A DNA stretch of 21,990 nt from a virus: positions 1 through 21,990 of the IMG/VR virus record IMGVR_UViG_3300015371_001843; one strand, 5' to 3'. The translations under genes were made by a program, and so were the position numbers. Below are positions 613 to 21,853 of this stretch, piece by piece (within the stretch, counting starts at the first letter, position 1; the number at the start of each line of letters is the position of its first letter). The notes under the pieces are model-generated. The model was not told the DNA's origin and made no database searches. It saw only the letters and a program-made list of their open reading frames with translations.

Positions 613-3040
613 TTACTGGTTAGCGGCTGCGTCCTCGCTCGGTGGCACAGCGCTTCTGCTTAGTCCAGGCGCGGCCCGGTACTTTTCCAATACTCGTCTG
701 CGTGCTTCAGGAGGTAAGTTACCAACAGTTGCGCGTTTCTGTAATAGAAGTTTTTTTATTTGTGCCCGCTCCTGGGGTTCGGCCACGTCCCATACCTTGA
801 GCGCCTCCTCGAGCGTCAAGCGCTTGACGCTACGCACGAGATAAGGCTGCTTGGCTTCCCTGATAATGTAGTGTGCCTGATTGATGGTGAGCCCGCCCGC
901 CCGCGCCGCCGCCATGACCTCCAGGGATGTCATTTTCCCAAGCGCATAGCGCTGCTCGATCAGCTTGGCCGTATCGTGGAGCTCGGCCTGCTCGGCGGTT
1001 TTTGCCCCTCCGGGAACTCGGCGCCGCAAAAAATCCCCAGCCACTTCCTCGGCATCGGTTCTGGCAATAGAGGCTGGCGCCGGAGTGACGCCGACAAACG
1101 ATTGCACGGTCTTACTTGCTTGCCCAGGCCCGAACATTGATTTTTCGCCCGCCGCCTTGGCGCGTTGTTTCGCGTTTCTAATCGAGAAGGGCGTGAATAT
1201 ACCGGCCACATAGTTCATCAGACCATAGACCTGTTTAATCAGCGGGTCGCCGGGGTGGCGGATCTCGGTGCCGTAGAAGTCCTGATTGTTGAGCATCTCG
1301 ATTACCGCGGAGACTGCCGGGTGAACCTTGTGCCCGATGGTGGTGAGCGGGTGTTTGTAAAAAGCGTAAACGTCTTTCCAGTATGACGGCAAAGAGACTC
1401 GCTCCTCGCGGCCGGCCGCATCCTTGCTCCCGGTTCGCGGAAAGTAGTAATCGCGCACGTCGCGCGGTTTCTCTCCGGTGGCAAGAAAGTTATAGATCGC
1501 GCCCAAAAAGCCGACCACGATCGGCAAGGCGAGAAGATAGGCCATCCGATGAGTCATCTCGGGCCTTTGTCCTCTAGCCATCCTTGCGCCCTGCATGACA
1601 AAATCGGTCGTGCCGCCGCCGAGCTCTCTCACCGTACCGATGTTCCAGCCGAGTGAGCGCACCGAGGCCATGCCCAGGTCCTTGATGACCTTGTTCGCAA
1701 AGAGATTATCGTAAACCAGTTGCCCCATGCGATTATCGACCGAATCCCAAGCCTTCTGCACTTCCTGTCTTATGCGCTGATCGTTCCAGTTGTTGTCGTC
1801 CGCACGTTCGAGTATATCGCTGGCGAGCTTGGCGAACACGCCGAGTTTTTGGCGCGGGACAATATACTCCATGACCGGCTTGCTCATCTGCTCCATGGCA
1901 GCGGGAAATGCTCTCAGTCCCAGCCGCGCCCAGTCGCCCTCCTTCCATGCCTTCCAGAAAGACTCGATCGCTTGGTTTTTATAATAGACGTCCATGAACG
2001 GGCGCCCGCCCGCCAACGCGAGCGCATCGGCCTCGCGGCTAAACTGAGCATAGCTCCCCGGTGACAGGTATTCCTTGAGGAGTCGGTTTCCTACCAGCGC
2101 GTTTTCGATCGGGCTCACAAGGGTCGCGCCGCGTGCAATAGATTTGAGCGCTTTTCCCGGTTGCCCTCTGACCGCCTGCTCGATACCGAGCGCCACGTCG
2201 CTGGTGATCGCGTCGATGGAGGTAAACCCTAAATGGAAGAACGAAAAGCCGAGTTGCGCCTGATTGAGCGTGTTGCCGAGCTTGCGTGCGGTCTGATAAA
2301 GGAGGCTTTTACTCAGTCCCGGCGAGAGAAAATTGTTAAACGATTTGGCCGCATCGGCAGGCGCGTAGTAGCTGCCGCGGTTGATAAATCCCTGCTCCGC
2401 CTCCGACCATTGGAGCACGCGAAATATCTTGTCATCGAGTAGCTGCCATCCCTCGGGGGGCTTTTTCCCGAACCGGACAAACTTGGCGAGCCCTTCCTTG
2501 ATGAGCTCGTCCTTGATCCTATGCGCCATGACATAGCGGTTCATCTCGTTTATCTTGTAAAGCGCCAAGCGCACCGGGTTATAAGTGACCGGGGTCAATC
2601 CGGCCGCAATCCCGTCTGCGGTGGTCGGAATGGTGCGCTTTTTCAAGAATGAGGCTGGCCCTTCCAATGGGCGCTTACCGTTTAGTCGGGCAAAGAGCTT
2701 TTGCGCTTGTCCCGGCTGGCTCCAGACATGCGGAAAATAGTTCTCCAGGTAATTCTCGAGCTTGCCGGTGCCGAGCGCCTGCACATCGTCGCGGCCCTGA
2801 TCGAGCATCGTGCGCAGCGCATCGGCTAATCCCACGTTGGCGGGGTCCAACTGCTTCCCGCCTGTCTCCATGGCGTCGATGAAGCGTAGAGATGGGGCAA
2901 TCGGTGCCTTATCCCATTTCTTGATCTCGAGCTCCATGGCGTGCTCGGCCTGGGCGTTTTTCCTAAACCGATCGCCGCCGTATTCCCGGATAGTTCCGCG
3001 AGTGAGATCGCGCTCCGTCTTGTCACGGTTCAAATACTGA
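613..3040 (-). other. C-terminal polyvalent-protein region with membrane-like segment
   Basis: About residues 3025-3832. The region is helix-rich and has aromatic blocks around 3100-3500. One clear hydrophobic segment starts at residue 3523 (AYLLALPIVVGFLGAIYNF). After it comes a stretch with YWKDVYAFYKHPLTTI and NNQDFYGTEI, which I recognise as a common C-terminal pattern of phage large polyvalent proteins (LPD-type domains). Its biochemical role is not known to me. A membrane segment beside a DNA-translocating helicase would suit a protein that helps DNA cross the host envelope. That is inference. Confidence 0.55.
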
Positions 3041-6000
3041 ATGATGCCGCCGCGAGTTGCCGCAACGGGAGGTCCGTTTCCCCCAGGAAGGCCGATCGAG
3101 CCGCGCTCCCCTTCGGCCTTGCGGGCGCCTACCTCTGCAGCCTCCCGTTCCTCTGCTATCCGAATGGCTTCTTCGAGTGTCGAGTTTTCCTCGATGACGC
3201 CCAATTCCTGAAGCGTCTCCATGGCGGACTGCTTACTAAATTCGCTCGCGGCAGGGTTGCTTAGTGTTTTCTCTGCGTCTTTGGCGAGTTCCTGGTTCGC
3301 TTTGTCCAGGTCCTCCACGCGCCCGCGCGCCTGCAGACGAGCCGAACGCCGGCCGGGGGCATTGCGGTCACCCAATTTTTCCGCGGTGGCCTTATTTGCT
3401 GCCTCTTCTTCTAGGCGTTGGCGGATGGTTTCCCTGATATTCTGGCGCTGTTCCTCGGGATGGTGCGCGAGTGGATAGTCGGGCTCCTTGTGAAGCGTGA
3501 CAAGCGATGAGTCAACTATGATGGGGTCTCCCGGCTTTAAGTCGCCGATCAGACCATGGGCAATCTGTTGTTCGGTATCCCTATCGGGCTTGATGGTAAG
3601 CTGCCCGTCACCGCCCACCGCGGCAATCTCGCCGTGAAACTCATCCCCTCCGTCAGTCAGTTTGGCCGTAACCGGGTCTCCGACCTGCCAGCCGGCGCCC
3701 GCCTGAAGTAACTTAACGACATCTTTTAGCTGCTCGCGTTTCTCCTTTAACTCCGCCGCCTGATCCCATGGCCGCTCAACGAAGTTCTTTAGCTCGCGCT
3801 CGTTTCTCTGTTTGGTGGCGAGCTCGACCTCTTGAGTCTCCGGGTCGCGCATGATCCGCTCGACCTGCGCCGGGACGTTCTGCAAAAACCCCGTGCCGGT
3901 GGTAAATCCGTTGTAAGTCGCCGGCCCGTCCTTGAAGCGCCAGTATATAGTGGCGACATCGGCCTCGTAGTATATCCGCTCGGGACCTTGTTTTGATTCG
4001 TCGAATACACCGCGGACGCTTGCATAAGCATCGGCAACGATCGGCCTGCCGTTTAGCTCAAAGGCACCGGCCTCTCTTCTGATACTCGCCTTTTTCTTTA
4101 ACGCATCGGCCTGGGCATCATCGAGGATGCTGCTCGCCCACGTCTCGATAGCCGCTTTTACGTCCTTCTCCCCGGTATAGGTCTTGCCGTTGAGTTTTAG
4201 CTCCGGGGTATAGCCCTTATCGAATACCCCTTTGAATTCCGCCGCCGCCTTTTTCGCCGCATCCAGTTGGCGCTCGTTAAACGGGATCACACGATCGCGC
4301 AGTTCCAATAGCTCGCGCTGGCTTCTGCTCACCTGCTCGCGGTGCGCTCCTTCCACGGAGTCAAGCGTCTTGATCTCGTTCTCGAGCTTGAATCTCTCGT
4401 AGGCGAGCGGGTTTCCCGAATAGGCCGCGAGTTGCTTCTGCATGTCCAAAAACACATCGTCGGTCGGGTCCTCGATATAATTCCCCTGATACTCGCCGCG
4501 CATAAGCTGATTTAATTGCGCCTGCTTGCGCGTGAGCATCTGGAACCGCGCCGCATCGAGACTGTCTTTAACGCCGAGCGAAATGACCTCCACCTCCTTA
4601 TTCATGTTCCCCTGTCTGACTGCCCTGGCCGTTCTCTGCTCCATCTTGGCCGGCGTGTCCGGGGTATCGACGTGTATGAGTCCTACGCTTCGGTCCGCGG
4701 CGTCAAACCCGGTGCCGAGCGTATCGGAGTGGCCGATCAGTATGCGGATATCACCGCTCTTGAATTTCTCGCGCACCGCGGCCCTTCTGGCGCCCTTGAC
4801 GCTTTGATCCATGACCACAATTTCATTGGCCGGGATGCCGCCCTTGATGAGCTTGTTCCTGATGTCCTGATGGGTGTTGAACACCGCGGCCTTGCCCGCC
4901 GCGTCGTTCTGCACGTCGAGAAATACCCAAATCGTGCCCTTGATGTCGTTGTAGTCCTTGTACAATCGTTGGATTTCTCGCACCGCCGCATTGAGCTTGC
5001 TTCCCGGATTGTCCGGGAGGGTAGGATCAATCAGGCGCATATCGACTGCGGCCTTTTTCCCCATCGTGTACATGGTGCCGGGAATCCAGTTTAACTGGCG
5101 CCTCATGCGGCCCGTTACCCTGGCGTACCCTTCGAGCTGCGAGCGAATCCAACTGATTGCCTGGGTGAGCTCGGGGGTCTGCGGTACTTCGATAATCTTG
5201 GTGCCGCCGCCCTTGATGATGGGCAAATCCTTGAGCTTCACCATGTCTTGAGTCACTACGTCGCCGGTCTCTTTCCACGCCTTGACGAGGTTCTGAGCGT
5301 TGGTGTAGCCGGTAAACCGGGTGTCCTCTTTCCATGAGCCGCCCGAGGTGAGCTCGATGTCGGTCTTGGTGTCGCCGTAATTGCTGGCGAACTGGTCGAA
5401 GAGATCAATGCCGTATTTGTTGAGCACGTCAGGGCGGAGGTAGCGCATCATGTTCCAGGCCTCCGCGCTGGTGTTGCTGATCGGCGTGCCGGTGGCGCCG
5501 AGAGTGTTTCTCCCGTTGGCGTGCTCCTGTATCCACATCATCTTGAGCTTGTTTGCTACGCCGCGCTTGGAAAAGGTCCGGTCCAGTCCCTTGATGTTGG
5601 GGCGATTGCTGGTAAAGGCGAGTTTCTTATAGGCGTGAAACTCATCGACCATCAAAAAGTCAACTCCCAACTGCTCGAAGGTGTAAGCGTCGTCGGTCCG
5701 TATGTTGGCGAGCTCCTCGAGTTGCGCCTCGACGCGGCGCTGCGCTCTTACGATGTCTCTCACTTGCGGGGAGTTTTCCCCTTCGATCCGCGCCATCTCG
5801 ATCCGGGCCCGCTCCAATTCATCGAGTTGATCCTGAATCCAGCGATCAACGCGGGCCTTATCGACCGCGATCATGTCGTACTGGCTTTGTGGAATAATCA
5901 CCAAGTCCCAATCCCCGGTGGCGATTCGCGCCATGGTGCCCGTGCGGTGCGCGGGGTCAAAATCGTGCTCGCCCGTGTGCATGATCTTGGCCGCGGGGTA

Positions 6001-9000
6001 AAGGCGCTGCGCCTCGGAGGGAAACTGCTCCGCGGTTGAGTTGTGAACCACGATCATTACCTTGTTGGCGATTCCTAGACGCTTGGCCTCCATGCCGATC
6101 GTCGTCATGATGAACGTCTTACCGTTGCCGGGGGCATGAAAGAGCCCCAAAGACTGCCGTAGCCCGCGCGTAGCAGCAACTTTCTGGTCGTCGCGCAGCG
6201 TAATAGTGTCGGTGGCGCCGGGGTAGTGCTGCCAGGAGGGGGGCCGGTGCTGCGGGAGGGTGGCGAAGTTCTGGCGCTCGTTATACAAGTCCTCCATCGC
6301 CTGCGACACGCCTTCGGTGGTCTTTATAAAACTCGAGAATTCCTTTCTGAGCCGCGCCTGCTTGGCCCGCGCATCGACTGTGAGGTTGTCGTTTCGCGTG
6401 CGCACGAGCCGATTGTTTTCGTCTCTATGAGTGTCCCAAACGATTGCCGGTCTGCCGTTTAAGGCATCGGAAATGATATCGCCGCCCGTGGCGTCCAGGC
6501 CCGCGGGGTTTTTAACTCCCCAGGTGGTCGCGTTCGCCGCCGATACCACTCTCGGCTCAGTTAGAATCCATGTCGCGGTGGCTGGGGTAAAAGTAACGCG
6601 GAGATCTCGCTGTTGGAGGATTTGCCGCGCCCACTGTTGCACGGTTGCGGGAGGTATCCAGTCCGCGCCGAGCGTGACGCTCGCCTTGCTGATCGACACG
6701 CGCTTGGGCTGAACCTTTTCCAGTTCCTCGACATGCTTTTGATAGCGCGGGTCGAGTTTCGCCGCCTCTTTTGCCGCTTCGAGCTTTTGGCGGACAAACC
6801 CGGAAAGATATTCCGGGCCGTCGTACCAGAGCCCGTCTGTGGGGTCCTGAAACGCGAGCGCGTTTTGCTCCAGGTGCGCTATTACTTGCTCGACGGGCTT
6901 TCCAGTGAGTTGGGCGATATATTCGGGGTCCGCCGCACCCTTGAAATTGGAAGAGACCTCGTAGGCGTCGGGAATCGTCTCCACGCTGGAAGGTGGTACA
7001 TTGGGGTGGCCCGTGCGCTTGGTGAGGATATCGGATTTTTGCCAGTTAGTGACGCGCTGCTGGCGTCCGTTTTTGATAGTGCGAAACGAATAGACTGGTT
7101 TTTCCAAAGAGCCGGCATGAACGAAGTCGGTATCGTCTCTTAGGTACTTCGAGCGTGCGCCGTTTATCTCGCCGTGCTTCTTTAGGTACTCATCGTACTG
7201 CTTGGCTAAATCCTTGCGGCCCGCCTCAACCTCTTTCTCGGTTGCCTCGGGGCTTTTCTCCATCGCCACTTGGCGATTACGCGCATCGCGCAGCGAGACA
7301 AACCTCTTGGCCTGCACTACCTTCGCTGGATCGTTGGCCCAAGCCGGCTTGACCGGCTTTCCGTCATGGCTCACGCGCACCACGGTATTACCGCTTACGA
7401 CGTAGGTGCCGGGTTTGCCGGTTAGTTCTCCCGGCTCTGGGGCCGCGGCAGTTTGCGGCGCCGCTGCGCCTTTGCCTAAAACATTCTCAGGGAGCTTGCT
7501 CACGGCCCCGGTGAGCTCTGCGGCGAAATCTTTGCCCGGACTCGGAAGGAGCGCCGGCATGTCTTTACCGTACTGCCTGCCCTCGAGCGACATTCTACCG
7601 AGCATCATGTCGGGGTGCTTGGCGTAATACTCGTTTAGCTTGACCGGCTTATCGTCGTAGGTTTTGGAGTCAACTACATTGTCCCAGCGCTCACCGGGAA
7701 ACGAGGTCGCGTCTTTCTTGCGTAGGAAAATAACATCGGTTGTGACTTCGGTGTTGGCGTTGCCCTTAAAGGTGGTGTTGGGCAGGCGAATCGCGCCGAT
7801 CAAATCCGCGCGTTCGGCCATGTACTGACGGGCCTTGATGCTGGTCGGCGCATCCATGGTATAGCTCGAGGTGATAAACGCGATCACGCCGCCCGGTTTG
7901 GCCGCGTCAATCGAGCGCGCGAAATAATAGTTGTGGAGATTGAAGTCGGGAAAGCGCGAGTCGTGTACGGTAATATCGGAAAACGGGACGTTGGTAATTA
8001 CAAGGTCCTGCGAGTTGGGCGCAATCTTGGCCTTCTCATACGGAGTGATGTCGATTTTCGCTCTTGGATAAAGCGCCTTGGCGATCCGGGCCGAAACGCT
8101 GTCGATATCGACTCCGCGCCAGCGCACGTTATCCTTGATGGCCTGCGGGGTAAGGCCGACGAAATTACCGACGCCGATAGCCGGCTCGAGCGCGGTGCCG
8201 CCGTGAAACCCTAAGCGCTCAACGGCGTCCCAGATTTTATTGATGACGGTGCGGCTGGTGTAGTGCTGCGTGTCGAGAGAGGCTTTCGCGGAACGGTACT
8301 CATCGGGCGTGAGGCCCTTTTTGACCTCATCGTATTGTTTGCCCCAAGCCTTCTCCCAGTTTTCCCACTCTTCTTTTTGGAAATCGTAGCGCGGCGGGCT
8401 ATCTCGGTATGCCGCCTTGCCGGAGTCAAACACGGGCTTGAGCCCGCCCCAGCCGACATATTTGGAAAGCGCGGTCTGTTCTTCGGGAGTTGGTGCGCGG
8501 CCGGTTTTTTCTAACTCGTTAAGAGTCTTGACCGCTTCGATGTTGGCGCTGACGCGAGACTTTAGCCCTACTGGGATCCAGTCGTGATCTTTAGGGAGAG
8601 AATAGTTGGGAGCTACTTCTTGTGGAGCGGTACCACCTTGTTTGCCTCCTGGCGGCGAAACCCCTCCTCCAGCGCTTCCACTCGGTCGATTATCTGCTCC
8701 TTCAACTGGGCCGGTATCCGCGGGGGCGGCGGGTCTTTCTCCTCTGGGCCTCCGCTCGGGGCGAGGATGAGCTCCACCGCCCGGTCCTCCGCCTCCAGCT
8801 CCGACATTCCCTGTTTCACCCGCTCCTTGATGTAGCGGTCCGCCTGCTGGATGTCCCTCGCCAACTGGTCCTCGATCTCCAGTATCTTGCCGCTGCGGTA
8901 GAGTTCCAGCATCCTCTCCGGCTCGTTGTCCATGAGCCACATCAGTCGCGTTCTGCCCAGCGTGTCCACTTGATTCTCCTTCTTGTTCAATTTGCGCTTG

Positions 9001-12000
9001 CGCGGGGGCGCTGTCAATGGGCTCGAGCTTGCCGTTCACCCATTTGCGGTTGACCGGCTCATCGGATGGGACGACGCGGCTTTCCTTTGCCGCCATCCAG
9101 CGCGACATGAGATCGTCGGCGTAGGCCTTGGCCTCTTCTTCGGTGGCAAACCTGAGCGCGTTGGAATTGAAGTCCGAGCCGTCGCTGATCTCCACCTTGA
9201 ACGAGCCCTTGGCGGGCGGCGCTTTAGGTTCGGCCTTCTCCGGTATTCGCCCGATCGCCTTCAGTCCCTCTTCGCCAAACTCCTGTTGAATCTCCCGTTC
9301 AAGATTATTGCGCGTGTTGTAAAAGCCCTGGGCGCGGTTGGGCTCGTTACGCTGCATCGCCAAGTTGCCCTTGTGCTCGAAGTCCTTCCAGGCGCCGACA
9401 AGTTTCTCTAAGCGTCTTGCCTTCTCGTCTTTCTTGACGTAATCGGCGTACTCCTCTGGCGTTTGAACCCTTGGCCCTGGCGCTTTGCCCTCTTCGAGTA
9501 TCCGGGGATCAACGAGACGTGACTCGTAGGGCTCGCCCTCGACCTTGATACGTAGCTTGTCGCCCTCTTTGCCGAGCACGGTTACGGGCTTGCCTTTGTA
9601 GGTAAGCGTCACGCCACCTTCTGAGTAGCGCTGCGCAAGTGCGCCGGGACTCTCGATCACTTCAATGCCGCCGCCCTTCTGTTCCTTGGCCTTCTCTACT
9701 CGCTCCTTTGCTTTGGCCTTCGCGGCTTCGCGGAGCCGTTTCTGCTCGGCCTCGGCGGCTGCAATCTTTTCCTCGATGCTCGGTTTAGCTTCGGCGGGCT
9801 TTGTTTCTGGCGTGAACGGCTGGAGGCTGTCGGCGTTAACGATCCGGACCTCTCCCATTGTCGAGGAGATTCTATAGCGGTCGCCCTCTTTCCCGACTAC
9901 CGTGGACCTTTGGCCGGGAGCGCCGACGCCAGGAGTGAAAATTACTTTATCCCCTACCTTGAATTGTGCAGGCGGCTTGGGCTCGGTCGGCGCCTCCCCC
10001 ACCGGGAGCTCCGGCTCCTTCGCCGCAATCCCTGGCTGCTCGAGCTCGAACGGCTTTTCTGTCTGTCCTACCTTGGGCCGGAGGCCTGTCTCCGGTATCG
10101 TGCGCGGTCCTTCGCGCGATCCCGGTATAACCGCCTGCGGTCCTGCCGGTGTCGGCTCGGTGCCCTTGTTGGCGAGCGCCTTGGCAAACTCGCGGTAGGT
10201 GTTCGGGAACAGTCCCGATCGGCTGATCTTTAATAGCTTGGCCTGATCGGTCTCCGATCTGAGGTAGTCGCTAACGTCCTGGCTCCTGAGCTCGTTTATC
10301 CGGTTCGCCGCGGTCTGCTTGATATCGCGCGGCGTAGAGTCCATGAGCGCCACGTCGAACAGGGTGAACGGGTCGTTTTCCTTCGCCATCCGCTCGTTCA
10401 TTTCGTGGGTCAGGTCGGTATTGAGACGGATTGGCTTGGTCTCTTGCCCTAGCTTTTCGAGCCGTCCTTTTGCCCCTTCCCCGCTGGCGATCTGCCCCTC
10501 ATCGACATTGATAAGCCCGCCATTTGGCGTCGTGACGTATTTACCGCCCGGAGGCACTTCGGGGGCCTCGCCCGGTGGTGTGGTCAGATTGGCCGCGAGC
10601 GGTTTCGATTCTGGCGGCTTTTCTGAAACGGTTGGCGCGGTGGTTTCAGCGGGTTTCTCCTTGAACCCCTCCGGCGCTGGTAGTGCTCCGCCTGTGGGCC
10701 CTGGCGGCTGTTCTCCTCCCGGCTTTGGCGCCGCTGCGGCTGGTGCTTCTGGCTTTCCTCCCCCTTTTTGGCGCCGCGCCCACTCGTCGGCGTAAATCTT
10801 GTAGCGCGGGTCCATTTGGGGATCGAGCGCGTTCATTGCGTGCTGGATATGGGCATCGCTCGATTGCCGCGCGATATCCCCGACCGCTGCCGCGTCCTCG
10901 GGCGAGAGATCGCGCAGCGGCTCGGTGGAGCTCAGTTTCGCGGCTGTTTCCGGATTGAATTTTCCCCAATCGCCAAACAGGCGCCCGCGGGCGTAGTTCA
11001 AGGCCTGACCTAAAGGTACGTGCGGCGAACCCGGCGCGTTCATTATTGCGGTATTGACCGCTCCCGCTATGTCCTGGCCGAGTGTTGGGTAAAATTCCGG
11101 CTTGATCGAACTGACCGCCTCTGTTCCTGCTCTGAACGCATCAGAAACTATTTCGGGAATTGGGTTTACGATCGCGCCAAGATCGGGCGTCGGTTTTCCC
11201 GCCAAGTCGGTTGTCATTGGCGGCTTGCCCTGTATCGCTTGCACAAGGCCCGGAAACGGCACCATCTTTTGTGCGGCCGGGGTATTAAGCGGCGGAGTCA
11301 ATGTTTGTAGTGCGCCGGTAATTAGCGCATTGCCTCCCGTGCTGATTGCCTTCCCGATTCCTTGCGGCACCGCTCCGGCGATATCCTCTCCGGACGGTGT
11401 GAATTCGTGCGCTGGCTCTGCGCCGAGATAGCTCCCAGCCGCTTTGGCAAGATTGGAAAGCCGGTCCTGCCATCCCTTCGAGGCCTCGTTCTCCGCGCGT
11501 ACCTTGGCGGCGCCGTAGAGCGGTGGCGGCGGTTCCTTGATGGCCGAGGGGATGTTGGCGCCCATGTCGGGCATTTCGGAAACCTGCAGCGGTGGCGGTG
11601 GCCCTGGCGCTTGCGGTTGCGGCTGCGGAATGAGCGATCGCAGTCGCTCTTTTATTCCGCTAAGGAGGCTTGGCGCGGCTGGTGCTGGCGCGGGCACGAC
11701 GGCCGGCGCTTTGGGCTCGAGGATATTCTTCCCCGTGGTCGTGTCGGTGACATTGCCCTCATCGTCAACGGCAAACTGCGGGTTTAACTCAGTCGGCGGT
11801 TTGGGTGGCGGTGCGGGCCGCGTGCCGGGAAAGCTCGGAAGATACGATTTTACCGTCTCCATAGACGGCATTGAGGGAAGCGCGTTTTTGATTGCGCCGG
11901 TCGCCCGCTCCATTAAGGAGGGTTGAGGAGGCGCCTTGAGTGGCTTTAGGGGCGTTACACTATCGTACTCTTCCGGCGTCACCTCGCGGAATCCGCCGCT

Positions 12001-12111
12001 GCTAGGCGGCGCGGAGCCTGCAAGTCCGCCGTAGGTGGCCGGGAACTCACCCTTGGCGAAGGGAGTTACTTTATCGTACTCCTCCGGCGCGACCTCTCTG
12101 TAATCGGCCAT
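613..12111 (-). CDS. Giant polyvalent protein: DNA methyltransferase-helicase, probably virion-delivered (DarB-like)
   Basis: This is one uninterrupted frame of 3832 residues. Its order is: a duplicated N-terminal motif (4-17, 41-54); a long Pro/Ala/Glu-rich part; SH3/KOW-like modules around 720-770 and 835-870; a small domain at about 972-1030; a Gly/Pro-rich linker (about 1035-1170); an adenine-type methyltransferase (about 1174-1480); a SNF2-like helicase (about 1965-2530); a third SH3-like module; charged coiled-coil-like stretches; and a C-terminal region with a hydrophobic segment (3523-3543). Methyltransferase-helicase fusions of this kind are known in phage and conjugative-element polyvalent proteins. 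P1 DarB is a virion-packaged, injected anti-restriction protein. From this and the putative ejection-protein genes upstream I infer injection with the genome. The ATG directly abuts the stop of the upstream gene and has no good SD, so translation is probably coupled. Confidence 0.85.
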   Translation of the reverse strand: MADYREVAPEEYDKVTPFAKGEFPATYGGLAGSAPPSSGGFREVTPEEYDSVTPLKPLKAPPQPSLMERATGAIKNALPSMPSMETVKSYLPSFPGTRPAPPPKPPTELNPQFAVDDEGNVTDTTTGKNILEPKAPAVVPAPAPAAPSLLSGIKERLRSLIPQPQPQAPGPPPPLQVSEMPDMGANIPSAIKEPPPPLYGAAKVRAENEASKGWQDRLSNLAKAAGSYLGAEPAHEFTPSGEDIAGAVPQGIGKAISTGGNALITGALQTLTPPLNTPAAQKMVPFPGLVQAIQGKPPMTTDLAGKPTPDLGAIVNPIPEIVSDAFRAGTEAVSSIKPEFYPTLGQDIAGAVNTAIMNAPGSPHVPLGQALNYARGRLFGDWGKFNPETAAKLSSTEPLRDLSPEDAAAVGDIARQSSDAHIQHAMNALDPQMDPRYKIYADEWARRQKGGGKPEAPAAAAPKPGGEQPPGPTGGALPAPEGFKEKPAETTAPTVSEKPPESKPLAANLTTPPGEAPEVPPGGKYVTTPNGGLINVDEGQIASGEGAKGRLEKLGQETKPIRLNTDLTHEMNERMAKENDPFTLFDVALMDSTPRDIKQTAANRINELRSQDVSDYLRSETDQAKLLKISRSGLFPNTYREFAKALANKGTEPTPAGPQAVIPGSREGPRTIPETGLRPKVGQTEKPFELEQPGIAAKEPELPVGEAPTEPKPPAQFKVGDKVIFTPGVGAPGQRSTVVGKEGDRYRISSTMGEVRIVNADSLQPFTPETKPAEAKPSIEEKIAAAEAEQKRLREAAKAKAKERVEKAKEQKGGGIEVIESPGALAQRYSEGGVTLTYKGKPVTVLGKEGDKLRIKVEGEPYESRLVDPRILEEGKAPGPRVQTPEEYADYVKKDEKARRLEKLVGAWKDFEHKGNLAMQRNEPNRAQGFYNTRNNLEREIQQEFGEEGLKAIGRIPEKAEPKAPPAKGSFKVEISDGSDFNSNALRFATEEEAKAYADDLMSRWMAAKESRVVPSDEPVNRKWVNGKLEPIDSAPAQAQIEQEGESSGHAGQNATDVAHGQRAGEDAGTLPQRQDTGDRGPVGEGHPAGGPLHQGAGETGNVGAGGGGPGGGAHPRPERRPRGERPAAPADTGPVEGADNRPSGSAGGGVSPPGGKQGGTAPQEVAPNYSLPKDHDWIPVGLKSRVSANIEAVKTLNELEKTGRAPTPEEQTALSKYVGWGGLKPVFDSGKAAYRDSPPRYDFQKEEWENWEKAWGKQYDEVKKGLTPDEYRSAKASLDTQHYTSRTVINKIWDAVERLGFHGGTALEPAIGVGNFVGLTPQAIKDNVRWRGVDIDSVSARIAKALYPRAKIDITPYEKAKIAPNSQDLVITNVPFSDITVHDSRFPDFNLHNYYFARSIDAAKPGGVIAFITSSYTMDAPTSIKARQYMAERADLIGAIRLPNTTFKGNANTEVTTDVIFLRKKDATSFPGERWDNVVDSKTYDDKPVKLNEYYAKHPDMMLGRMSLEGRQYGKDMPALLPSPGKDFAAELTGAVSKLPENVLGKGAAAPQTAAAPEPGELTGKPGTYVVSGNTVVRVSHDGKPVKPAWANDPAKVVQAKRFVSLRDARNRQVAMEKSPEATEKEVEAGRKDLAKQYDEYLKKHGEINGARSKYLRDDTDFVHAGSLEKPVYSFRTIKNGRQQRVTNWQKSDILTKRTGHPNVPPSSVETIPDAYEVSSNFKGAADPEYIAQLTGKPVEQVIAHLEQNALAFQDPTDGLWYDGPEYLSGFVRQKLEAAKEAAKLDPRYQKHVEELEKVQPKRVSISKASVTLGADWIPPATVQQWARQILQQRDLRVTFTPATATWILTEPRVVSAANATTWGVKNPAGLDATGGDIISDALNGRPAIVWDTHRDENNRLVRTRNDNLTVDARAKQARLRKEFSSFIKTTEGVSQAMEDLYNERQNFATLPQHRPPSWQHYPGATDTITLRDDQKVAATRGLRQSLGLFHAPGNGKTFIMTTIGMEAKRLGIANKVMIVVHNSTAEQFPSEAQRLYPAAKIMHTGEHDFDPAHRTGTMARIATGDWDLVIIPQSQYDMIAVDKARVDRWIQDQLDELERARIEMARIEGENSPQVRDIVRAQRRVEAQLEELANIRTDDAYTFEQLGVDFLMVDEFHAYKKLAFTSNRPNIKGLDRTFSKRGVANKLKMMWIQEHANGRNTLGATGTPISNTSAEAWNMMRYLRPDVLNKYGIDLFDQFASNYGDTKTDIELTSGGSWKEDTRFTGYTNAQNLVKAWKETGDVVTQDMVKLKDLPIIKGGGTKIIEVPQTPELTQAISWIRSQLEGYARVTGRMRRQLNWIPGTMYTMGKKAAVDMRLIDPTLPDNPGSKLNAAVREIQRLYKDYNDIKGTIWVFLDVQNDAAGKAAVFNTHQDIRNKLIKGGIPANEIVVMDQSVKGARRAAVREKFKSGDIRILIGHSDTLGTGFDAADRSVGLIHVDTPDTPAKMEQRTARAVRQGNMNKEVEVISLGVKDSLDAARFQMLTRKQAQLNQLMRGEYQGNYIEDPTDDVFLDMQKQLAAYSGNPLAYERFKLENEIKTLDSVEGAHREQVSRSQRELLELRDRVIPFNERQLDAAKKAAAEFKGVFDKGYTPELKLNGKTYTGEKDVKAAIETWASSILDDAQADALKKKASIRREAGAFELNGRPIVADAYASVRGVFDESKQGPERIYYEADVATIYWRFKDGPATYNGFTTGTGFLQNVPAQVERIMRDPETQEVELATKQRNERELKNFVERPWDQAAELKEKREQLKDVVKLLQAGAGWQVGDPVTAKLTDGGDEFHGEIAAVGGDGQLTIKPDRDTEQQIAHGLIGDLKPGDPIIVDSSLVTLHKEPDYPLAHHPEEQRQNIRETIRQRLEEEAANKATAEKLGDRNAPGRRSARLQARGRVEDLDKANQELAKDAEKTLSNPAASEFSKQSAMETLQELGVIEENSTLEEAIRIAEEREAAEVGARKAEGERGSIGLPGGNGPPVAATRGGIIQYLNRDKTERDLTRGTIREYGGDRFRKNAQAEHAMELEIKKWDKAPIAPSLRFIDAMETGGKQLDPANVGLADALRTMLDQGRDDVQALGTGKLENYLENYFPHVWSQPGQAQKLFARLNGKRPLEGPASFLKKRTIPTTADGIAAGLTPVTYNPVRLALYKINEMNRYVMAHRIKDELIKEGLAKFVRFGKKPPEGWQLLDDKIFRVLQWSEAEQGFINRGSYYAPADAAKSFNNFLSPGLSKSLLYQTARKLGNTLNQAQLGFSFFHLGFTSIDAITSDVALGIEQAVRGQPGKALKSIARGATLVSPIENALVGNRLLKEYLSPGSYAQFSREADALALAGGRPFMDVYYKNQAIESFWKAWKEGDWARLGLRAFPAAMEQMSKPVMEYIVPRQKLGVFAKLASDILERADDNNWNDQRIRQEVQKAWDSVDNRMGQLVYDNLFANKVIKDLGMASVRSLGWNIGTVRELGGGTTDFVMQGARMARGQRPEMTHRMAYLLALPIVVGFLGAIYNFLATGEKPRDVRDYYFPRTGSKDAAGREERVSLPSYWKDVYAFYKHPLTTIGHKVHPAVSAVIEMLNNQDFYGTEIRHPGDPLIKQVYGLMNYVAGIFTPFSIRNAKQRAKAAGEKSMFGPGQASKTVQSFVGVTPAPASIARTDAEEVAGDFLRRRVPGGAKTAEQAELHDTAKLIEQRYALGKMTSLEVMAAARAGGLTINQAHYIIREAKQPYLVRSVKRLTLEEALKVWDVAEPQERAQIKKLLLQKRATVGNLPPEARRRVLEKYRAAPGLSRSAVPPSEDAAANQ
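4522..6218 (-). other. SNF2-like superfamily 2 helicase domain of the giant protein
   Basis: About residues 1965-2530. Walker A is HAPGNGKT (1992-1999). Motif II is DEFH (2156-2159). Motif III is GATGTPI (2205-2211). Motif V lies in GHSDTLGTGFDAAD (about 2455-2470). Motif VI is QRTARAVRQG (2492-2501), with the arginine-finger pattern. All key ATPase residues are present, so ATP-driven translocation on double-stranded DNA is likely. A charged stretch at about 2110-2150, between motifs Ia and II, looks like a coiled-coil insertion. Sitting after the methylase, it resembles the DarB and mobile-element methylase-helicase arrangement. Confidence 0.85.
7672..8592 (-). other. Adenine-type DNA methyltransferase domain of the giant protein
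   Basis: About residues 1174-1480. The SAM-binding motif I is EPAIGVGNF (1309-1317). The catalytic motif IV is NVPF (1374-1377), in the place of NPPY/NPPF. A following stretch with HNYYFARSIDAAKPGGVIAF matches the usual layout of N6-adenine methylases attached to SNF2-like helicases in mobile elements. In that group I recall NVPF as a normal variant, so I expect the domain to be active. The predicted reaction is SAM-dependent adenine methylation. The target site is unknown and no separate recognition domain is evident. Confidence 0.8.
8613..8969 (-). CDS. Overprinted ORF nested in the giant gene, TnpV-like (118 aa)
   Basis: This ORF is in the +1 frame relative to the giant gene. I chose GTG at 8967-8969 because AAGGAG sits 6 nt upstream. 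TTG at 9017 is an alternative start giving 134 residues, and the frame is closed upstream by a stop at 9036-9038. Of the first 40 codons, 36 end in G or C. The giant's frame over the same bases has only 13 of 39. The protein begins MDTLGRTRLMWL, then has P-x-x-x-L-x-x-x-GK-I, acidic and Gln-rich helices, a Pro-rich hinge (about 80-86) and a basic helical tail. The first ~70 residues resemble TnpV, an uncharacterised small protein of Firmicutes mobile elements, from memory only. The giant's frame here is low-complexity Gly/Pro/Gln linker, as expected for an overprinted region. Confidence 0.7.
   Translation of the reverse strand: MDTLGRTRLMWLMDNEPERMLELYRSGKILEIEDQLARDIQQADRYIKERVKQGMSELEAEDRAVELILAPSGGPEEKDPPPPRIPAQLKEQIIDRVEALEEGFRRQEANKVVPLHKK
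8976..8981 (-). promoter_or_regulatory. Shine-Dalgarno of the nested ORF
   Basis: AAGGAG on the minus strand, followed by 6 nt (AATCAA) and then GTG. This is near-ideal spacing inside the coding sequence of the giant gene. It decides the start choice for the nested ORF. Confidence 0.65.
11950..12102 (-). repeat. Duplicated N-terminal motif of the giant protein
   Basis: Residues 4-17 (YREVAPEEYDKVTP) and 41-54 (FREVTPEEYDSVTP) match at 11 of 14 positions, 37 residues apart. A duplicated acidic/aromatic motif at the very N-terminus of a virion protein may be a docking or packaging tag. That role is inference. Confidence 0.75.
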
Positions 12112-15902: not shown

Positions 15903-15914
15903 ACAGTGGCAGTC

Positions 15915-16451
15915 ATGCCCAAGCTTAAAGATCGTGTCGGCCAGCGGTTCGGAAAACTGGTTGTCACAAAGCTCGTTGATACTGGGCCACAGCGGCATGA
16001 CGCACGCTGGCTTTGCGTCTGCGACTGCGGGAATCAGAAAATCGTGCTGTCGTCCAACCTTGGCAGAAACGTGAGAAGCTGCGGCTGTTGGCGTCGTGAG
16101 AAAATCAAGATACGGAATCAATCTCACGGATGCTCGGCCAGGGAAGCTATCGCTGCCGAATACAAGGCTTGGCGTGGCGCTAAGAAGCGATGCTTTAATC
16201 CGACCAATCCTTCGTACAAAAACTATGGTGGACGCGGCATCACGATGTGTGAGGAATGGAAGAATAGCTTTGAGGCGTTCTTTCAGCATATGGGACCACG
16301 CCCGAGCCGGGGATATTCTCTCGACCGCATTAACAACAACGGAAATTACGAACCGGGTAACTGTCGGTGGGCAACGTGGACCGAACAGGCGAACAATAGA
16401 CGACCGTATCCGGCTCATCTCCAACGCCCCCGCCGTACAGCGTCAACGTAG
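15915..16451 (+). CDS. Free-standing HNH-type homing endonuclease (178 aa)
   Basis: It lies on the opposite strand to the operon, between the nozzle and an 82-aa gene. I chose ATG 15915; GTG 15906 is the other option. A Cys cluster typical of this family (C34, C36, C38, C56, C58) forms a probable zinc ribbon after GQRFGKLVV. Then come YKAWRGAKKRCFNPTNPSYK and YGGRGI, and an HNH-like core with LDRINNNGNYEPGNCRWAT (residues 136-154) and QANNRR. I recognise this as a common phage HNH family. The likely role is to nick or cut DNA and spread its own gene. Its 3' end overlaps the nozzle gene's 3' end by 37 nt. Confidence 0.85.
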   Translation: MPKLKDRVGQRFGKLVVTKLVDTGPQRHDARWLCVCDCGNQKIVLSSNLGRNVRSCGCWRREKIKIRNQSHGCSAREAIAAEYKAWRGAKKRCFNPTNPSYKNYGGRGITMCEEWKNSFEAFFQHMGPRPSRGYSLDRINNNGNYEPGNCRWATWTEQANNRRPYPAHLQRPRRTAST

Positions 16452-19465: not shown

Positions 19466-19714
19466 TTACCGATCGAGTTTCCCACCTACCGAGGTGCTCA
19501 ATTTGGAGGGCGTCAAAAGTGGCTGGCGCTTGTTTCTGACAACGGCGTCCTTACTGCGCCCGTTCCCGGAGCTATCGGTGACTCCGCCCGACTCTACGCG
19601 GGTGACGGATAGCTTCGAGGTTTTCTTTCGCGGCGGCTTGGCGATGCCGGTATCGACATGGCGATACTTCTTAACGTCGCTCGAAAGCCCTCTTGCCCCA
19701 GCGAGCCGCGACAC
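19466..19714 (-). CDS. Small basic paralogue 4 of four (82 aa)
   Basis: GTG start at 19712-19714, one base after the stop of paralogue 3. It opens MSRLAGARGLSSDVKKYRHV, matching the shared pattern M-S/P-R-hydrophobic-x3-R-x4-DV-x2-Y/F. A second shared block, VTRVESGGV, pairs it with paralogue 3 (VVRVEAGGV). The rest is basic and low in aromatic residues, probably disordered. I know no function. It directly precedes the adaptor gene. Confidence 0.65.
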   Translation of the reverse strand: MSRLAGARGLSSDVKKYRHVDTGIAKPPRKKTSKLSVTRVESGGVTDSSGNGRSKDAVVRNKRQPLLTPSKLSTSVGGKLDR

Positions 19715-19715
19715 G

Positions 19716-19958
19716 TTACACCCCTACCGCGTGCCCGCTCGTGACGCGGACCTTCTTCATTACCGTCTTGCCGCGAGAAGGAGAGCCGGTGCCCTTTACC
19801 GGATGGCTATTGACGCCGCCCGCTTCTACGCGCACTACCCCGTCTTTTAGCTTGGTGCTCTTTACTTGGGGCTTGCCGGCCGTTCCGGTATCCACCGCGC
19901 CGCTCATGTACTTGCGCACGTCCTTTTTCTGCGCGCGCACATCGTTTAGTCTTGGCAT
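19716..19958 (-). CDS. Small basic paralogue 3 of four (80 aa)
   Basis: ATG at 19956-19958. The SD (AGGAG) lies inside the 3' end of the upstream HNH gene, 11 nt from the ATG. It opens MPRLNDVRAQKKDVRKYMSG, the shared N-terminal motif with Pro in place of Ser, and has VVRVEAGGV at about residues 41-49. The tail is Lys/Gly-rich. It is closest to paralogue 4. Function unknown. Confidence 0.65.
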   Translation of the reverse strand: MPRLNDVRAQKKDVRKYMSGAVDTGTAGKPQVKSTKLKDGVVRVEAGGVNSHPVKGTGSPSRGKTVMKKVRVTSGHAVGV

Positions 19959-19963
19959 TTGGT

Positions 19964-20452
19964 TTACGCTCCTGGCACCTGGGCCTTTTTATTCCAGGGA
20001 ATTCGTGACTTGTGTTCCCTGATTGTTTTGCGACGATGACAATTCGGGCAAAGCGTCACGAGGTTGTTCGGGTCGTGTGCGAGTTCTGGGGATTGGCATC
20101 TTGGGATGATGTGATCGACTTCCATTATTTCTACTTCTCTAAAACCGCATATTTGGCAGGTGTAGTCATCCCTAATGAGTGCCTGCGTTTTCCAGTATCT
20201 CCAGCCTCCGCCGTTCCAGTGATGATTGACTGGCCCTTTGCCGCGTGACATTCGCGCCCGCGACTCGGGGTTCATTTTCTTGTGGCCTTTTCTCAGCGCT
20301 TGTTTGTGAGCTTCCGACAATGGCCGCGACATTCTGGCACGAGACGCCGCGCTCATGTTCTCGAAACCCTTTCTCAATGCCTGTTTGTGCGCTTCTGATA
20401 AGACCCTCGCTAGATTCTTATTTTTTTCCCGCATATCGCGGTATTTTACCAC
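19964..20452 (-). CDS. HNH endonuclease with two NUMOD3-like repeats (162 aa)
   Basis: Read in operon orientation. The start is GTG 20450-20452 or ATG at 20432-20434. Either way it overlaps paralogue 2 and has no clear SD. Two near-identical ~25-residue repeats (LSEAHKQALRKG) resemble NUMOD3 DNA-binding motifs of homing endonucleases. The C-terminal HNH is complete: C99-x2-C102, V-D113-H114, N130 and C135-x2-C138-H139. Zinc is likely bound by the four cysteines. It sits between paralogues 2 and 3 and carries the SD of paralogue 3 in its last codons. It is probably a mobile homing gene. A terminase-linked HNH is less likely at this location. Confidence 0.85.
   Translation of the reverse strand: MVKYRDMREKNKNLARVLSEAHKQALRKGFENMSAASRARMSRPLSEAHKQALRKGHKKMNPESRARMSRGKGPVNHHWNGGGWRYWKTQALIRDDYTCQICGFREVEIMEVDHIIPRCQSPELAHDPNNLVTLCPNCHRRKTIREHKSRIPWNKKAQVPGA
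20246..20401 (-). repeat. Two tandem 25-residue repeats in the HNH protein
   Basis: Residues 18-42 and 45-69 both start LSEAHKQALRKG and end SRARMS, with small changes between. At the DNA level they are similar but not identical, so the duplication is not brand new. Confidence 0.75.
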
Positions 20453-20642
20453 GATGCTTGTCGAGTTTGTTGATTAATGCCCCAATCGCCGCTCCTTTCC
20501 CCTTGGCCGCTTCAATTCGCGCAAAATTTCCGGTCGTACCTTTTTGACCAAGCGCTTTAACAATACCTTTGCCCTGCGGCTTTGGCTTTCGATACGAGGC
20601 CACATCCACGCTGGTGACGCGGCCCCCTTTCACCCGGCTCAT
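20418..20642 (-). CDS. Small basic paralogue 2 of four (74 aa)
   Basis: ATG at 20640-20642 with an AGGAG-containing SD and an ATGA overlap with paralogue 1. It opens MSRVKGGRVTSVDVASYRKP, close to paralogue 1. The rest is Lys/Gly-rich, with a helix around 45-62 (ARIEAAKGKGAAIGALINKL). Function unknown. The charge and size could suit a DNA- or capsid-interior-binding role. Confidence 0.65.
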   Translation of the reverse strand: MSRVKGGRVTSVDVASYRKPKPQGKGIVKALGQKGTTGNFARIEAAKGKGAAIGALINKLDKHRGKIPRYAGKK

Positions 20643-20893
20643 CTCCCACTCCTTCCTCTGCCTCTCATGCCGCCACCACCCATCATGCCGCCACCCATCA
20701 TATCGGTGTCCTGCTCGGGCATGGTGGTATCGCCTGCGCCCTCGTCCATCCCGCCTGCGTCCATCGGCATTGGCCGCGCCGTTGGCGTTACCTTCTTGGC
20801 TGGGAATCCCTTTTTCTTAAACGGAGGGGCCTTTTTTTTGGTAAACGCAGCTACGTCCATGCTGCTCGCGCGTGCTCCCTTGATTCGGCTCAT
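20639..20893 (-). CDS. Small basic paralogue 1 of four (84 aa)
   Basis: ATG at 20891-20893, overlapping the previous stop as ATGA. An AAGGAG lies only 2 nt upstream, which is shorter than ideal. It opens MSRIKGARASSMDVAAFTKK, then a Lys/Pro-rich basic part and a Met/Gly/Asp-rich tail (about 42-84). The tail is low-complexity and its sequence is not shared by the other three paralogues. Function unknown. Confidence 0.65.
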   Translation of the reverse strand: MSRIKGARASSMDVAAFTKKKAPPFKKKGFPAKKVTPTARPMPMDAGGMDEGAGDTTMPEQDTDMMGGGMMGGGGMRGRGRSGR

Positions 20894-21204
20894 TTCTCCT
20901 TACCCCCTGTTATCATCTGGCCCTTGCGGGTCATTTTGTTGCTCATGGTGCCGCGGGCGCCCTGGACCGCGATCGGCCCCTCTTCCTCGACGGGCGGCTC
21001 CGATAATGCCGCCTTCGCCTCGATCTCTTTCATTGCGGCGATCTCTTCGGCGGTCTCTACCGGATGAATGAACACCCCGTAGCCGTCCGACCCCTCGATC
21101 AAGCGCTGCACGTCCGGGTCGTCGGTGGCAAACAGGCCGTTTACAAAGTAGTGGTTGCGGATGGAGTAGGATTTGAATTTGTTGCAAATGTATGAACGCT
21201 TCAC
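20890..21204 (-). CDS. Small hypothetical phage protein (about 104 aa)
   Basis: I prefer GTG 21202-21204 because GGAG lies 9 nt upstream. ATG 21217-21219 (109 aa) has no SD. It opens KRSYICNKFKSY, has a compact N-terminal part with DPDVQRLIEGSDGYGVFI (about 30-47) and ends in an acidic Glu-rich and then a basic tail. I recall similar short proteins near phage capsid genes, but no function. It ends in the ATGA overlap with paralogue 1. Before the HNH insertion it would have directly followed the glycosyltransferase gene. Confidence 0.6.
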   Translation of the reverse strand: MKRSYICNKFKSYSIRNHYFVNGLFATDDPDVQRLIEGSDGYGVFIHPVETAEEIAAMKEIEAKAALSEPPVEEEGPIAVQGARGTMSNKMTRKGQMITGGKEK

Positions 21205-21210
21205 TATAAT
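21182..21210 (+). promoter_or_regulatory. Sigma-70-like promoter for the 211-aa HNH gene
   Basis: TTGCAA (21182-21187) and a perfect TATAAT (21205-21210) are separated by 17 bp. The start site would fall near 21217, at the ATG of the endonuclease, so the transcript would be nearly leaderless. The -35 matches consensus at 4 of 6 positions. Confidence 0.55.
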
Positions 21211-21217
21211 GATCTCC

Positions 21218-21853
21218 ATGGCTGGCGGTCGTTTATGGACTCCCGAAGAAGATCGGTTTCTAAGGCACAATCGAGAACAGATGACGCTCGCCCAACTGGG
21301 AGAAAAGCTTGGCCGTTCCTGGAGGTCGATAAACGTTCGGTGCTCAAAGCTGGGTATCGTAATCTATCGCCCCTGGACAGAACATGACGAGAAGGTTTTG
21401 CGGGACTACTACCAAAAGATGTCTCTCCGTAAGTTAGCTGCCGATTTGCACCGTACCGAAGTGGCCGTTCGACAAAGATATTTTGAACTTGGCCTCGTGT
21501 CATTTCATCACTACCCCAAAGGAACCAAGTGCGCCGTTAGGGATTGCACCTCCGACCGAGAACAAGGTCCGTGGTGCCGCCTGCATTATCACCGCTGGTA
21601 CCGCGGTGGTGATCCTGGAGAACCTGATAGAAGGCGGGCGCGGCATGGCGAAGGCAAGGGACGCCGGCAGGCTGTTTGCAACGGCAAGAAAGCATACAAA
21701 TATCGAGTAGAGTGGGAAAAGATTCACGGTCCAATTCCTGCGGGCTATCTTATTCATCACAAAAACGAGAACCCCAAAGACGACTCCCCCGACAATCTTC
21801 AACTTGTCACTCGCGCCGAACATGCGCGTCTCCACAGCAAAAAGCATCAGTAA
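21218..21853 (+). CDS. Free-standing HNH homing endonuclease with tandem SANT/Myb-like domains (211 aa)
   Basis: It is opposite to the operon. I chose ATG 21218 because it sits just after a promoter-like element. TTG 21173 and ATG 21209 are upstream options. Residues 7-47 (WTPEEDRFLRHN) and 53-93 (WTEHDEKVLRDY) are two SANT/Myb-like helix-turn-helix repeats. A zinc-finger-like block follows (C105, C110, C120, H123, then HYHRWYRGGDP). The HNH is GYLIHHKNENPKDDSPDNLQ (177-196) with H202. This family is common in phages. It should bind DNA through the N-terminal repeats and cut or nick it. Its 3' end overlaps the glycosyltransferase stop by 7 nt. Confidence 0.85.
   Translation: MAGGRLWTPEEDRFLRHNREQMTLAQLGEKLGRSWRSINVRCSKLGIVIYRPWTEHDEKVLRDYYQKMSLRKLAADLHRTEVAVRQRYFELGLVSFHHYPKGTKCAVRDCTSDREQGPWCRLHYHRWYRGGDPGEPDRRRARHGEGKGRRQAVCNGKKAYKYRVEWEKIHGPIPAGYLIHHKNENPKDDSPDNLQLVTRAEHARLHSKKHQ

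Follow-up and report, generated by a model that had tools for sequence, protein, structure and literature searches.

Sequence comparisons give us high confidence that a small open reading frame (ORF) lying within a giant phage gene is itself a genuine gene that encodes a protein and overprints its host in the +1 frame. The window, meaning the whole stretch of DNA that was analysed, is a viral contig of 21,990 bases. Its nested gene (8613..8969, minus strand) is tnpV-like and encodes 118 amino acids between a GTG start and a TAG stop; it was characterised from the sequence, a family HMM, and an AlphaFold2 model. Relatives carry a conserved protein at the same site and in the same frame, and substitutions in these relatives indicate that the nested frame is constrained while the giant frame over it is simply kept open.

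The Giant Gene and Its Nested ORF

The host gene (613..12111, minus strand) encodes a DarB-like polyvalent antirestriction protein of 3832 amino acids, which presumably protects phage DNA against restriction by bacteria. It matched phrog_10089 (DarB-like antirestriction) with an E-value of 0 over its methylase-helicase part. With a methylase-helicase dyad in a very large ORF, it is one of the DarB-like polyvalent proteins (PMC5512222). The methylase region (7600..8610, minus strand), located by tblastn and alignment, served as the anchor and lies directly downstream of the nested gene. This region was matched by 104 phage records in tblastn searches, and its mean column identity was 61% in an alignment of nine sequences. 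The nested ORF begins at offset 3142 of the giant and ends just before the methylase region; in translation, the giant residues that it overprints (1048-1166; 8616..8969, minus strand) form a linker rich in Gly, Pro, and Gln.

An earlier note on this DNA had placed the ORF in the +1 frame with a GTG start, preceded at 6 bases by the Shine-Dalgarno (SD) sequence AAGGAG. Rechecking the sequence gave the same coordinates, frame, and start, with the SD at 8976..8981 (minus strand). The third-position counts in that note were also correct: 36 of the first 40 nested codons end in G or C (0.86 over the whole ORF), and the giant-frame GC3 over the nested ORF is 0.35, which falls in the bottom 0.6% of windows along the giant.

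We compared the window protein with public families and with the family built from its relatives. No Pfam family was found for it at E<=1, and direct searches with this protein alone returned no PHROG, phage, or viral-contig match. The nested-family HMM scored it at 13.5 bits (E 4.9e-5), the top score among 13 out-of-frame ORFs in the region, and none of 5000 shuffled sequences scored as high. In a profile-profile comparison, its probability of matching the nested family was 9%. A less sensitive profile search of the window record with the family alignment found nothing; the local HMMER run, which is more sensitive, did match. AlphaFold2 predicted a five-helix model (pLDDT 83) with the same helix order as the model for the protein of Erwinia phage PEp14, although the two models are not independent because their alignments share members. 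The HMM matches indicate that the window protein is a divergent member of the family, joined to TnpV through the family and not directly.

The ORF could in principle be open by chance in a GC-rich linker, with no nested gene in the window: GC content is 59%, other +1 ORFs in the giant reach 97 codons, and database searches with only the window protein matched nothing. However, the nested ORF is the longest +1 ORF of the 3832-codon giant, and it has the right site, frame, SD, and third-position bias as well as the HMM score given above. We consider a chance ORF very unlikely, mainly because the relatives have a conserved protein and a conserved SD at the same site and in the same frame.

Among the other phage genes of the window, three ORFs resemble HNH-type endonucleases in translation (15906-16451, plus strand; 19964-20452, minus strand; 21173-21853, plus strand). 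The small basic ORFs at 19466-19714, 19716-19958, and 20639-20893 (minus strand) have alike starts (M[SP]R[LI] ... DV) and are perhaps paralogues.

Distribution of the Nested Gene

Relatives whose methylases are only about 40% identical have a +1 ORF at the same site. The first such relative was locus L001, and further nested ORFs were found in phages of Erwinia, Pseudomonas, Vibrio, Klebsiella, Agrobacterium, Microcystis, and Sinorhizobium. Eight nested phage proteins have 17 invariant columns in common. A search with the nested-family profile retrieved 68 viral loci and 26 genomic ones. A nested match and a methylase hit occur together in 92 loci, and in every one of them the small ORF is +1 and inside the methylase-carrying ORF; these loci represent 74 distinct nested sequences, a few phages being present twice. 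The methylase-carrying ORF starts only shortly upstream in four of the 92 (L007 and L041, both from PBC5, L021, and L105).

An independent sample of 80 loci, 75 of them distinct, was fetched by the methylase alone. Most of the 80 have a family-HMM match just upstream, always in the +1 frame; a few of the matches are weak or about 1.5 kb away. A +1 ORF of at least 80 amino acids occupies the site in 92% of the 75 distinct loci versus 30% of control windows, and a +2-frame ORF is found there in 8%. The ORF and its SD, on whose presence in homologous phages the earlier note had made its claim depend, are thus retained in relatives (the SD is described below).

Several methylase loci that lack a family-HMM match have other-looking small helical +1 proteins just upstream of the methylase (L149, L150, L164, L170, L184, L109, L119, L165, and L011). 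One group of these starts MQTLYKPS..YP; they are possibly very diverged members or replacements. In L150 (269-1276), a +1 stretch of 336 open codons that contains an HNH/homing-endonuclease-like sequence lies in an open giant frame and is possibly another overprint or an insertion.

The nested gene is absent from P1 DarB and from a Streptococcus suis SNF2 gene, so a methylase-helicase is not always in need of it. P1 ulx, located downstream of darB, was considered as a stand-alone homologue and rejected, as it gave no match. A tblastn search of plasmid records with the nested member from the Agrobacterium phage also gave no match. In an Anaerolineales genome (L104), a separate copy of the family is situated 23 nt upstream of a methylase-helicase ORF. 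A stand-alone ORF of 263 codons in Pseudidiomarina (L095:3971-4759) is TnpV-like in its N-terminal part and hydrophobic in its C-terminal part.

Maintenance of the Giant Frame and Initiation of the Nested Frame

We recoded each nested protein synonymously, following the codon usage of its own giant. In 6.7% of the trials the outer frame remained open, which corresponds to 5.0 of 74 sequences, whereas all 74 were observed to be open; the combined probability of this outcome is not to be taken literally because the 74 share ancestry. T-ending codons were found in none of the 1645 contexts in which the T would make a stop, versus 190 expected. These counts indicate that the outer frame is maintained over the nested gene, and the excess of open giant frames over the recoded expectation suggests that both frames are probably translated.

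Were the giant not translated through the nested gene, the locus would consist of two genes flanking the small one. The host ORF is indeed broken near the site in PBC5 (L007) and in a prophage contig (L021), and in Fibrobacter (L105) it starts just upstream. Against these cases stand the 74 stop-free giant frames, as well as the 53 stand-alone TnpV genes, none of which has a spanning frame; we regard a two-gene arrangement as highly improbable.

Programmed frameshifting into the nested frame would place a TnpV-like tail on the N-terminal half of the giant. The upstream ORF of PBC5 is in frame with the nested segment, which speaks for this reading, but PBC5 is a single record and may carry an indel. 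Several phages have a stop two codons ahead of the nested ATG, and an SD match of at least 4 nt precedes 96% of the nested ATGs at the conserved start versus 17% of control +1 ATGs. Because of this difference, internal initiation is favored over frameshifting, which appears extremely improbable.

Substitutions in Close Relatives

The earlier note had proposed comparing synonymous and non-synonymous change in both frames and had held that selection acts on the nested frame while the giant frame only stays open. We ran this comparison in eight groups of close relatives, with each change classed in both frames; the pairs overlap in ancestry. Selection was measured in relatives and not on the window's own sequence because searches found no close relatives of the window itself.

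Position 1 of the giant codons is position 3 of the nested codons. Over the nested gene, the shares of substitutions at giant codon positions 1, 2, and 3 are 0.56, 0.24, and 0.20. The corresponding shares are 0.18, 0.08, and 0.74 in the methylase, and 0.21, 0.13, and 0.66 upstream of the nested gene. Over the overlap, dSN/dSS for the nested frame is 0.20 versus a dNS/dSS of 1.00 for the giant frame, and dNN/dNS for the nested gene is 0.25. On either side of the nested gene, constraint falls on the giant frame (0.15 and 0.26), with the alternative frame neutral (~1). The pattern held in all eight groups and in 20 of 21 disjoint pairs (sign test, p 2e-5). By these ratios, the nested frame is under purifying selection in the relatives, with its residues conserved, and the giant's residues over the nested gene drift neutrally in close relatives, in agreement with the earlier note.

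Relationship to TnpV

The resemblance to TnpV (PF14198) that the earlier note had reported stands for the family and not for the window protein directly. A profile search of the 118-aa window protein against PF14198 gave no hit at E<=1, and the TnpV cut-off was not reached in the Pfam scan. The C-terminal motif MNNIR..AEEIV..ELIY, seen in the classical TnpV alignment, is not present in the window protein. For the family, hmmscan detected TnpV in five of eight phage nested members (best E 4.3e-4, below the cut-off), and two nested genomic members pass the PF14198 cut-off of 27 (L101 with 39.1 bits and L105 with 38.8 bits). An hhalign profile-profile comparison of the nested family with TnpV gave an E-value of 3e-5 and a probability of 73% over 50 columns. 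According to these profile matches, the nested family is homologous to TnpV, the two having a core in common. They differ in that TnpV genes are known from transposons, where they stand alone, whereas the nested family is overprinted in a giant gene.

Eight of the TnpV genes sampled in Firmicutes are nested, all in the +1 frame, and six of these have a methylase match in their 3-kb locus. Where a Firmicutes TnpV gene lies close to such a methylase, it is nested in the same frame, within a methylase-helicase gene. The other 53 TnpV genes are stand-alone, with no spanning ORF and no methylase within their 3-kb loci; partnership with a methylase therefore cannot be the role of the whole family.

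Fold Comparisons

Fold searches with the family model returned no significant solved structure. The best PDB match was PG0816 (2APL), with a probability of 0.80 but an E-value of 1.1; we take 2APL to belong to DUF1896 (PF08989). In Bacteroidota, DUF1896 genes are located directly upstream of methylase-helicase ORFs and overlap them by about 40 nt in four of four loci (L229-L232). The DUF1896 proteins are like the nested family in their position beside a methylase-helicase ORF and in the weak fold match, but they are longer and not nested, and no sequence similarity between the nested family and DUF1896 was found. We keep this possible kinship as a lead only.

The only strong hit in the viral fold library was a segment taken to be PBC5 orf33. 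In Sinorhizobium phage PBC5 (L007:1-4437), the giant is divided, and orf33, the ORF on the upstream side, continues in frame into the TnpV-like segment; in the PBC5 annotation, the small ORF is the tail of this larger annotated ORF. An identity of the family matches as the PHROG 938 "endolysin" was rejected because the match is explained by orf33, which enters the nested frame at its 3' end.

Discussion

Ribosomes would start internally on the giant's mRNA, so that each transcript would yield two products, the giant antirestriction protein and the small one. There is roughly an even chance that the small protein serves the methylase-helicase as a helical partner. Such a dedicated partner could be an assembly factor, a holdase, or a regulatory subunit. 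This role is suggested by the distribution of the small gene, which tracks the methylase-helicase module, both in the giants of phages and in methylase-helicase genes of Firmicutes, and does not follow the variable N-terminal modules.

The small protein might instead be a factor of the DNA-binding or excision type, present at the locus but with no role alongside the methylase-helicase. The name TnpV suggests such a function, TnpV has been reported in S. suis integrative elements (PMC9815147), and most of the sampled Firmicutes TnpV genes stand alone with no methylase within reach. On the other hand, about 90% of the methylase-selected phage loci have the gene along with the methylase module, and the nested Firmicutes copies too are within methylase-helicase genes. 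We consider this explanation rather unlikely.

Under the partner reading, the partner gene may once have been located directly upstream of the methylase-helicase gene. Upstream domains would then have been fused on, with the reading frame running through the partner gene in another frame and the gene itself not being deleted. We put forward, tentatively, a broader possibility: TnpV-like, and possibly DUF1896-like, helical proteins could be general companions of methylase-helicases, kept in cis by overprinting in polyvalent giants, and required for antirestriction activity or packaging.

Classical nested phage genes are Rz1 in Rz and E in D of phiX174. Completely overlapping coding sequences have also been described for ardD, which is antisense in tniA (PMC3533173). 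The nested gene and its giant share with these three pairs the complete overlap of two coding sequences. In contrast to them, the embedded family has stand-alone relatives, the outer frame evolves neutrally where the two genes overlap, and both phages and conjugative-type elements carry the arrangement.

In a text search, Iyer et al. 2017 (PMC5512222) did not refer to overlap, frameshift, or TnpV. More widely, text searches of the literature, covering mainly open-access papers, found no description of the nested gene. Nested phage genes and TnpV are each known; as far as could be checked, their combination is not.

In the 21 phage records with tblastn matches, the small ORF is never annotated on its own, so the finding adds a conserved protein to these phages. 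Gene finders that forbid long overlaps will overlook the nested gene in every genome that has it. The arrangement recurs in very different phages and mobile elements, beyond the one window. As an example of overprinting in nature it is unusually clean: a fusion seems to have swallowed an older gene, over which the outer frame evolves neutrally. For the TnpV family, the finding supplies a concrete candidate partner to test.
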